Assembly (NCBI RefSeq): GCF_022627325.1
Contig: NZ_JAETZZ010000004.1
Span: forward strand, 62,001-126,000
Length of the DNA: 64,000 bases
Direction: 5' to 3'
From: Pseudomonas putida
GTDB taxonomy: Bacteria > Pseudomonadota > Gammaproteobacteria > Pseudomonadales > Pseudomonadaceae
Shown here in pieces: positions 21,627 to 58,930 of the stretch; the first letter of the stretch is position 1, and every line of letters starts with the position of its first letter. Both the position numbers and the translations under genes were made by a program. The notes under the pieces are model-generated. The model worked only from the letters and a program-made list of their open reading frames with translations, was not told where the DNA came from and made no database searches.

Positions 21627-21765
21627 GCCAATCGCCGGCAAGCCGGCTCCCACCGGTGCGGCGCAGGCTTCAAGATAGTGGACTGCCCCAAGACATTGGA
21701 TTGCTGTCCAACTTCTTGGAGGCAGTCCACATTAGAGTGGGAGCCGGCTTGCCGGCGATGGGGCC
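21627..21765. repeat. Composite element: REP - 53-bp hairpin - inverted REP (copy A)
   Basis: REP at 21627-21655 (GGCCAATCGCCGGCAAGCC...) and an inverted REP at 21737-21765 flank a 53-bp hairpin at 21678-21730. The hairpin has outer arms GTGGACTGCC/GGCAGTCCAC, then CCAAGA/TCTTGG, then TTGGA/TCCAA. A second copy with the same layout is at 54657-54793. It lies between the convergent amidase and piuB-like genes. Confidence 0.9.
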
Positions 21766-40891: not shown

Positions 40892-40979
40892 GCGGCCCAT
40901 CGCCGGCAAGCCAGCTCCAGGTTCAGCGCTGTTGAAGAAGCAGTGCACTATCTGGAGCTGGCTTGCCGGCGATGGAGGC
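40892..40979. repeat. Inverted REP pair downstream of the small-protein gene and dppF
   Basis: REP at 40892-40920 (GCGGCCCATCGCCGGCAAGCC...) and its inverted mate at 40952-40979 flank about 31 bp. The CAGCTCCAG/CTGGAGCTG inner extensions pair as well, so the whole can form one long stem. It sits between two convergent genes and could end transcription of both. Confidence 0.85.
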
Positions 40980-48129: not shown

Positions 48130-48224
48130 GGCCCGTAAGCCGGCAAGCCGGATCCCACGGGGATCACTACAGATCCCCGGCCTGGTGCAATGTGTGTGGG
48201 GGCCGACTTGCCGGCCAACGGGCC
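48130..48224. repeat. REP - hairpin - REP element between opdP and a binding-protein gene
   Basis: Diverged REPs at 48130-48158 and 48196-48224 (inverted) flank a perfect 7-bp hairpin GGGGATC-ACTACA-GATCCCC (48159-48178). Same layout as the composite elements at 21627 and 54657 but with a different inner hairpin. Confidence 0.8.
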
Positions 48225-54656: not shown

Positions 54657-54793
54657 GGCCCTATCGCCGGCAAGCCTGCTCCCACAGGTGCGGGCGTAGG
54701 ATTGGACATAGTGGGCTGCCCCAAGCTAGTGGATTGGTGTTCAACTTCCTGCGGGCAGTCCATGGTGTGGGCCGGCTTGCCGGCGATAGGGCC
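54657..54793. repeat. Composite element: REP - 53-bp hairpin - inverted REP (copy B)
   Basis: REP at 54657-54685 and inverted REP at 54765-54793 flank a 53-bp core at 54711-54763. The core has the same length and about 80 percent identity to the one at 21678-21730. Two changes in the outer arms turn G-C/A-T pairs into G-T pairs, so the outer stem is kept if transcribed. Confidence 0.9.
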
Positions 54794-58834: not shown

Positions 58835-58930
58835 GCGGCCCGTCGCCGGCAAGCCGGCTTCCACAGGCAAGACGCCGTCCCATGGGGCGGCGTTGAACAG
58901 ATGGGCGCCGGCTTGTCGGCGATCGAGGGC
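58835..58930. repeat. REP - hairpin - REP element between gatB and the RlpA-like gene
   Basis: REP at 58835-58864 and a diverged inverted REP at 58903-58930 flank an ACGCCG...CGGCGT hairpin around 58870-58893. Same layout as at 48130-48224. It lies downstream of gatB and upstream of the RlpA-like gene. Confidence 0.8.

Follow-up and report, generated by a model that had tools for sequence, protein, structure and literature searches.

A probable 51-bp miniature derivative of an IS3-family insertion sequence beside REPs in Pseudomonas putida and other pseudomonads

The window, that is, the whole stretch of 64,000 nucleotides of Pseudomonas putida DNA that was analysed, contains ten REPs arranged as five inverted pairs; a control scan of the reversed sequence gave none. 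In two of these five pairs, at 21628-21762 (copy A) and 54657-54793 (copy B), a hairpin of about 53 bp lies between the inverted REPs. The common layout of REP, spacer, core and inverted REP, which an earlier note had described from the letters of this DNA, is confirmed at both places. The features are as follows:

21628-21653, plus strand: REP, left arm of copy A; 26-nt inverted-repeat arm, 96% complementary to 21737-21762, with REP matches
21654-21678, no strand: spacer between REP and core of copy A, similar to the spacers of C45:257695, C2:153798 and copy B
21679-21729, minus strand (the IS orientation): putative 51-bp IS3-derived mini-element of copy A, from the parent IS ends and model R1
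21737-21762, minus strand: REP, right arm of copy A (inverted); 26-nt inverted-repeat arm
54657-54685, plus strand: REP, left arm of copy B; 29-nt inverted-repeat arm, 90% complementary to 54765-54793
54686-54711, no strand: spacer between REP and core of copy B, from spacer comparison
54712-54762, minus strand: putative 51-bp IS3-derived mini-element of copy B, from model R1
54765-54793, minus strand: REP, right arm of copy B (inverted); 29-nt inverted-repeat arm
40901-40971, no strand: inverted REP pair without core, for comparison, from the REP scan of the window
48138-48216, no strand: inverted REP pair without core, likewise
58844-58921, no strand: inverted REP pair without core, likewise

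Delimited from GTGG to CCAC, the cores occupy 21678-21730 and 54711-54763. Both measure 53 nt and they are 83% identical across that length, in agreement with the equal length and the identity of about 80% claimed beforehand; the outer arms and their two differences had also been quoted correctly. The gap between the REP arm and the core is 24-25 bp on the left in both copies and, on the right, 6 bp in copy A and 1 bp in copy B. The element proper is 51 bp long (TGG..CCA, 21679-21729 and 54712-54762), the outer G/C of the 53 bp being flank. Both cores indeed read as a long stem-loop and fold better than their shuffles, copy A with -38.0 kcal/mol (z -8.2) and copy B with -26.4 kcal/mol (z -3.0; 2 of 200 shuffles equally good).

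A genome search with the whole composite gave 101 matching pieces, mostly REPs, and a gapped pattern of the core ends gave 10 matches at 7 distinct places, with 0 for the reversed control. For a wider search, a core model (R1) was made from 17 sequences, 15 of them from this genome. Its training set comprises 15 of the 18 mini-elements (minis) of this genome, copies A and B included, and 2 of the 27 minis of other species (L095, L096). Copy A scores 76.1 bits (E 9.3e-16 in this genome) and copy B 63.6 bits (E 1.3e-12). At E <= 1e-4, R1 recognizes 22 distinct places in this genome: 18 minis, three left ends of an insertion sequence (IS) and one left-end fragment. Further copies of the core, for which a search had been proposed, are thus present in this genome (18) and in other Pseudomonas: the complete genome G236, from the same species, also has 18, and among the 298 genomes searched 18 more have cores. 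Altogether 34 genomes give R1 hits, with minis in 20 of them, this genome included, and IS left ends alone in 9. The hits of G240 and G284 resemble chance matches in coding-like DNA and are not counted as minis; the hits of G066, G081 and G214 and one more hit each in G068, G271 and G146 are left out of the counts. An exact-pattern scan of genome contigs found two places, in P. wayambapalatensis RW3S1, where the mini has the duplication GGGA and an adjoining REP, and in Pseudomonas sp. GD03858. Searches for the mini gave no match in phages and none in plasmids, where four records have partial, IS-end-like matches; two of these cover 84-86% and fit the IS left end. Two places in this genome are of a rare remnant size: a 30-bp end fragment adjoining a REP (L066, G000:C67:52681-52710) and an element of about 100 bp with both ends (L025, G000:C79:144256-144355).

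Judged by sequence comparison, an IS3-family insertion sequence present in this genome very probably gave rise to the 51-bp core. The three IS left ends among the R1 places mentioned above belong to an IS3-family element: they read TGGACTGCCCCCAAGAAGTTGGACACCAATCCAACCCTTGGGGGATCTATGGGTAAGTACACC and lead into a gene, and the OrfA of this element matches HTH_Tnp_1 and, in part, transpos_IS3. The IS copies of this genome are truncated or end with their contig. At the start of the window's contig, C34:1-598 contains a right end with an 80%-identical C-terminus of OrfB upstream. Whole relatives are found in G143 (1440 bp, direct repeat TTG) and in G211 (three identical copies of 1424 bp, direct repeats CCC, GTC and CCC); the OrfB of G143 has an rve domain and matches transpos_IS3 with 341 bits. 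Members of the IS3 family usually make direct repeats of 3-4 bp and are about 1.2-1.5 kb long, and the parent agrees with this description in its lengths and repeats as well as in having an OrfA with HTH and an OrfB with rve/DDE domain. Within the family, it presumably resembles the IS150 subgroup.

In the IS orientation, the core joins the IS left end, made up of its terminal repeat and the hairpin before OrfA, to the tip of the right terminal repeat. In G191, one core (L226) consists letter for letter of the first 44 nt of this genome's IS and the 7-nt right-end tip CAGTCCA; in this genome, the core at C3:72001 shares 98% identity over 45 nt with the IS left end. Folded as DNA, the IS left end reaches -13.6 kcal/mol and the L226 mini -23.8 kcal/mol. 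The minis are short (51-53 bp) and noncoding, have terminal inverted repeats and share their ends with an autonomous element (left and right IS3 ends in this genome, G143 and G211), as is typical of a MITE. Minis of one build carry three kinds of end, TGGACTGCCCCC, TGAACTGCCCCCC and TGAACTGCGCCCC, and the build therefore arose more than once. At L202 (G250), L097 (G121), L205 (G134) and L207 (G239) there is an IS lineage whose ends read TGAAGTGCGCCCC, together with minis that share the build and end in TGAACTGCGCCCC / TGAGCTGCGCCCC; the mini of G134 has a 3-bp duplication and lies between REP-like palindromes.

Target duplications mark the cores as insertions in their own right, at least outside this species. 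An exact duplication of 3 or 4 bp borders 15 of the 27 other-species cores that were tested; shuffled flanks gave a mean of 1.20 and a maximum of 6, none of 5000 trials reaching 15, and no duplication was left when the core boundaries were moved by 1-3 bp. With six more cores added, the count is 18 of 33. In this species, duplications are absent, both from the 18 cores of this genome and from the five that only G236 has (0/23). Among equally decayed cores, the proportions are 0/15 in this species versus 16/27 elsewhere (Fisher P 1.3e-4). The target-site duplication of a MITE is therefore found in the other species (15/27) and lacking in this one.

REP ends were searched as GCTCCCAC / GTGGGAGC, with one mismatch, within 120 nt of the core. 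On at least one side, such an end was found for 16 of 18 cores of this genome, all five G236-only cores and 25 of 27 other-species cores, which bears out the expectation that cores are nearly always flanked by REPs. On both sides it was found for 10/18, 4/5 and 20/27, respectively; the fraction of random positions with REP ends on both sides is 0.0002 and 0.0029 (0.02% or 0.3%). In 15 of the 27 other-species cores the REP end lies exactly 4 nt away, and the REPs that cores adjoin in other species are of differing sequence types. The whole IS behaves alike: all five copies of which both ends were read have a 3-bp duplication (TTG in G143; GAA in G025; CCC, GTC and CCC in G211) and a REP-like end 4 nt away. 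By contrast, a REP tail lies no more than 10 nt away on that side in only 4 of the 14 IS left ends that were read, and two of this genome (C78:250690 and C78:561) are away from any REP.

The best explanation, in which we have good confidence, is a miniature IS3-derived element that lands beside REPs. The mini would form when nearly all of the IS between the ends is lost through a junction in a shared G run. The IS3 transposase would then take the edge of a REP as its target and move the mini in trans, so that the mini would be a MITE, and pairs of REPs (REPINs) would thereby collect it as cargo. Within this explanation, a MITE moved in trans is somewhat favoured over the collapse of a full IS in place, since G236 (18 minis, complete genome), G191 (7) and G210 (5) have many minis and no IS left end among the model hits. 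Other observations weigh against it. Close relatives of the transposase seem to be scarce: in 14 mini-bearing genomes, a search with OrfB detected a close relative (80%, partial) only in this genome, and in the others nothing or proteins of 30-35% identity; the same search missed OrfB in G103 and G250, both of which have IS left ends. Mini and IS left end coexist, among the hits that were read in the 34 genomes, only in this genome, 9 having left ends only and 19 minis only. Against the explanation as a whole count the 0/23 duplications in this species, the IS left ends away from REPs and the absence of the mini from the plasmids and phages searched.

Collapse in place is the most probable of the rivals, even if we consider it unlikely. 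It supposes that a full IS inserts beside a REP and is later deleted between direct repeats, namely the left-end hairpin TCCAACCCTTGGGGG and the right end TCCAACTTTTGGGGG, leaving a solo hairpin of 51 bp that keeps the duplication and never moves. These two sequences are indeed direct repeats in the IS, identical at 13 of 15 positions; repeated origins with three kinds of end (TGGACTGCCCCC, TGAACTGCCCCCC, TGAACTGCGCCCC) and the separation of minis and IS left ends over different genomes (19 versus 9, with both in one) would fit as well. Furthermore, it sidesteps a physical problem. IS3-family transposition is described as proceeding via a circular intermediate (PMC3299598), and a circle of 51 bp looks physically hard for this type of transposition. 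However, collapse would have to outrun all other decay to give the 30 minis that G236, G191 and G210 have between them, with no IS left end among the hits. Other remnants are few in this genome (C5:170555 and C79:144256), and G114 has three minis at separate places, two of which are identical.

It could also be imagined, as a tentative extension, that we are dealing with a parasite of two storeys, in which REPINs, themselves passengers of RAYT, are the platform for a near-minimal MITE of 51 bp made of IS3 ends only. In this two-storey arrangement the MITE would arise repeatedly from different IS lineages because most of the second end is already present in the hairpin that guards the start of the transposase. 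If the mini moves by itself, an IS3-type machine would have to handle DNA not long enough for the usual double-stranded circle, which would point to another intermediate, such as a hairpin, a tandem dimer or the joining of the ends of two copies.

The earlier note had proposed a unit that is moved or copied as a whole by a RAYT-type transposase coded elsewhere. As mobile DNA with many copies, and with units that are present or absent as wholes between two strains, this proposal stands in part; what does not hold is the place of the core in it, which appears to be an IS3 derivative with its own ends and duplications and is missing from orthologous REP pairs. Two inverted REPs around a spacer, as in a REPIN, are present. 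A RAYT gene was found as well, in a single match in the genome (NF047646, 150 bits, over the cut-off; PF01797 matches the same gene), and it has one in-frame TAG, which may be a sequencing error. This RAYT-like gene (L056 / L118, G000:C79:20886-21293) has REPs on both sides, and its C-terminal part with the HFH motif is open over 88 aa; an intact RAYT was not found in this genome by the NF047646 and PF01797 searches. RAYT as the only mover is rejected as a full account on the grounds of the stop codon, the coreless pairs and the cores' own duplications.

Evidence from orthologous loci bears on the same question. For copy A, nine loci were examined and six genomes read with both flanks in one locus; all six lack the core, and a coreless REP pair is present in G009, G007 and G015. 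At the locus of copy B the core is missing from all five genomes, with REP pairs in G009 and G103, other palindromic repeats in G024 and none in G003 and G015. Empty sites, which were to be looked for, thus exist for both copies. REPs differ in sequence between species, so the orthologous pairs may have been replaced; even so, REP pairs can do without the core. Since other-species cores have their own duplications and orthologous REP pairs are coreless, the core seems to enter REP pairs independently.

The comparison of the two P. putida strains is more favourable to joint movement. G236 has 13 of the core loci of this genome in common, A and B included, and a further one (C6:137824) below the threshold. 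As to the remaining three sites of this genome, G236 has a diverged core and an extra spacer (L135), a core fragment with a different spacer (L120) and a coreless REP pair (L137). Conversely, of the five sites where only G236 has a core, this genome lacks the whole unit at two (L209, L220), has a single REP palindrome at two (L223, L225; C34:5751-5882 and C1:230121-230199) and, at the fifth (L221), a REP pair with a short loop and no core. The collapse to one palindrome is as expected from slippage at the palindrome foot or from excision.

These whole-unit differences can be read as signs that REP, spacer, core and REP are one RAYT-moved unit with the core as an original part. The lack of target duplications in this species points in the same direction, as do the common spacer and insertion point of A, B, C2:153798 and C45:257695 (spacer identity 75-83% versus a mean of 57%); C10:159, C10:243 and C7:110337 are another group with common spacers. 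As a general account, such a unit is quite improbable: cores of other species bear their own duplications, they sit beside REPs of different sequence types, REP pairs without core occur at orthologous loci and the only RAYT match has an in-frame TAG. Furthermore, a Mantel test on 23 sites shows no correlation between the similarity of cores and that of spacers (r 0.02, a value reached in 1953 of 5000 permutations), and a genome-wide co-duplication of core and spacer is rejected. Given the 0/23 duplications and the whole-unit differences between the two strains, REP-plus-core units in this species probably also spread or are lost together. Under the preferred reading, a miniature IS3-derived element landing beside REPs, most copies in this species would be old, and some REP-spacer-core-REP units would later have been copied, lost or reshuffled with the REPINs.

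That the core is a structured RNA under selection, as the earlier note had suggested from the changes in the outer arms, is rejected, there being no covariation beyond chance, and we regard it as hardly credible: the cores fold strongly and their both-sided changes (8 cells versus 4.3 in shuffles, reached by 53/500) and covariation score (0.119 versus 0.107; 68/500) lean slightly in its favour, but paired cells equal the shuffled mean (both 78.4%; alignment A1, long hairpin), the RNAalifold consensus retains four pairs, none compensatory, and the palindrome is accounted for by the IS ends. Among the 14 stem pairs that changed in six gapless ortholog pairs from conspecific genomes, nine gain or lose their pairing, four remain paired by a one-sided change and one is compensatory. 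An Rfam search of the window at gathering thresholds gave no match. On the preferred reading, the hairpin arises incidentally from the terminal repeats and has no RNA function, and a parallel change of both ends along with the transposase would imitate covariation.

REP-targeting IS3 elements, MITEs and REPINs are already known; the literature searched shows neither their combination here nor the size. In titles and abstracts (supplements and subscription journals lay outside the search), no 51-bp IS3-derived element in REP pairs was encountered. ISPsy8 of P. syringae DC3000 is described as an IS3-family element located in REPs in 5/5 copies with 3-bp direct repeats (PMC1525189, which also cites IS1397 and ISKpn1 as REP-targeting IS3-family elements). 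Family, REP insertion and 3-bp repeats are common to both. However, by that description, which is the basis of the comparison, ISPsy8 splits the REP between bases 32 and 33, whereas the present element lies beside it, commonly 4 nt off, and is a noncoding derivative of 51 bp. MITEPsy1 of P. syringae pv. phaseolicola is, as described, 100 nt long with 18-nt repeats and tentatively of the IS5 family, and its transposition has been seen (PMC3189936). It is likewise noncoding, shares its terminal repeats with a resident IS, has a target duplication and exists in many copies, while the present element is 51-53 bp long, IS3-related and REP-targeted, its movement being deduced from sequence. REPINs or BIMEs, described together with RAYT as two inverted REPs that are separated by a spacer and form a hairpin (PMC3116915), are the same host structure; in contrast to that description, two of the five pairs of the window have the core in their spacer as a foreign insertion that brings ends and duplications of its own. 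The size range quoted for bacterial MITEs is 70-300 bp (PMC3733652), and an element of 51 bp, below this range, tests the minimum size of a copy-out/paste-in element. The preferred reading explains recurring hairpin spacers in Pseudomonas REP pairs, which can be mistaken for small RNAs or intrinsic parts of REPINs, and it gives a dated nesting of an IS3 remnant within a REPIN. It also calls for caution, as palindromes built of IS ends imitate conserved RNA stems.

Two further observations concern the spacers. At L021 (G000:C10:159-209 and 243-292), two minis lie 33 bp apart with a repeated spacer, and the G236 ortholog (L217) has one. A second recurrent spacer module, approximately GGGATCGCGCCAGCTTTTAGAAGTTGAGCAAGACAGTTGC, occurs in many REP pairs of this species and sometimes adjoins the IS3 mini; its sites in this genome and in G236 include L209, L220, L129, L128, L059, L138 and others, for example C3:72050-72085.
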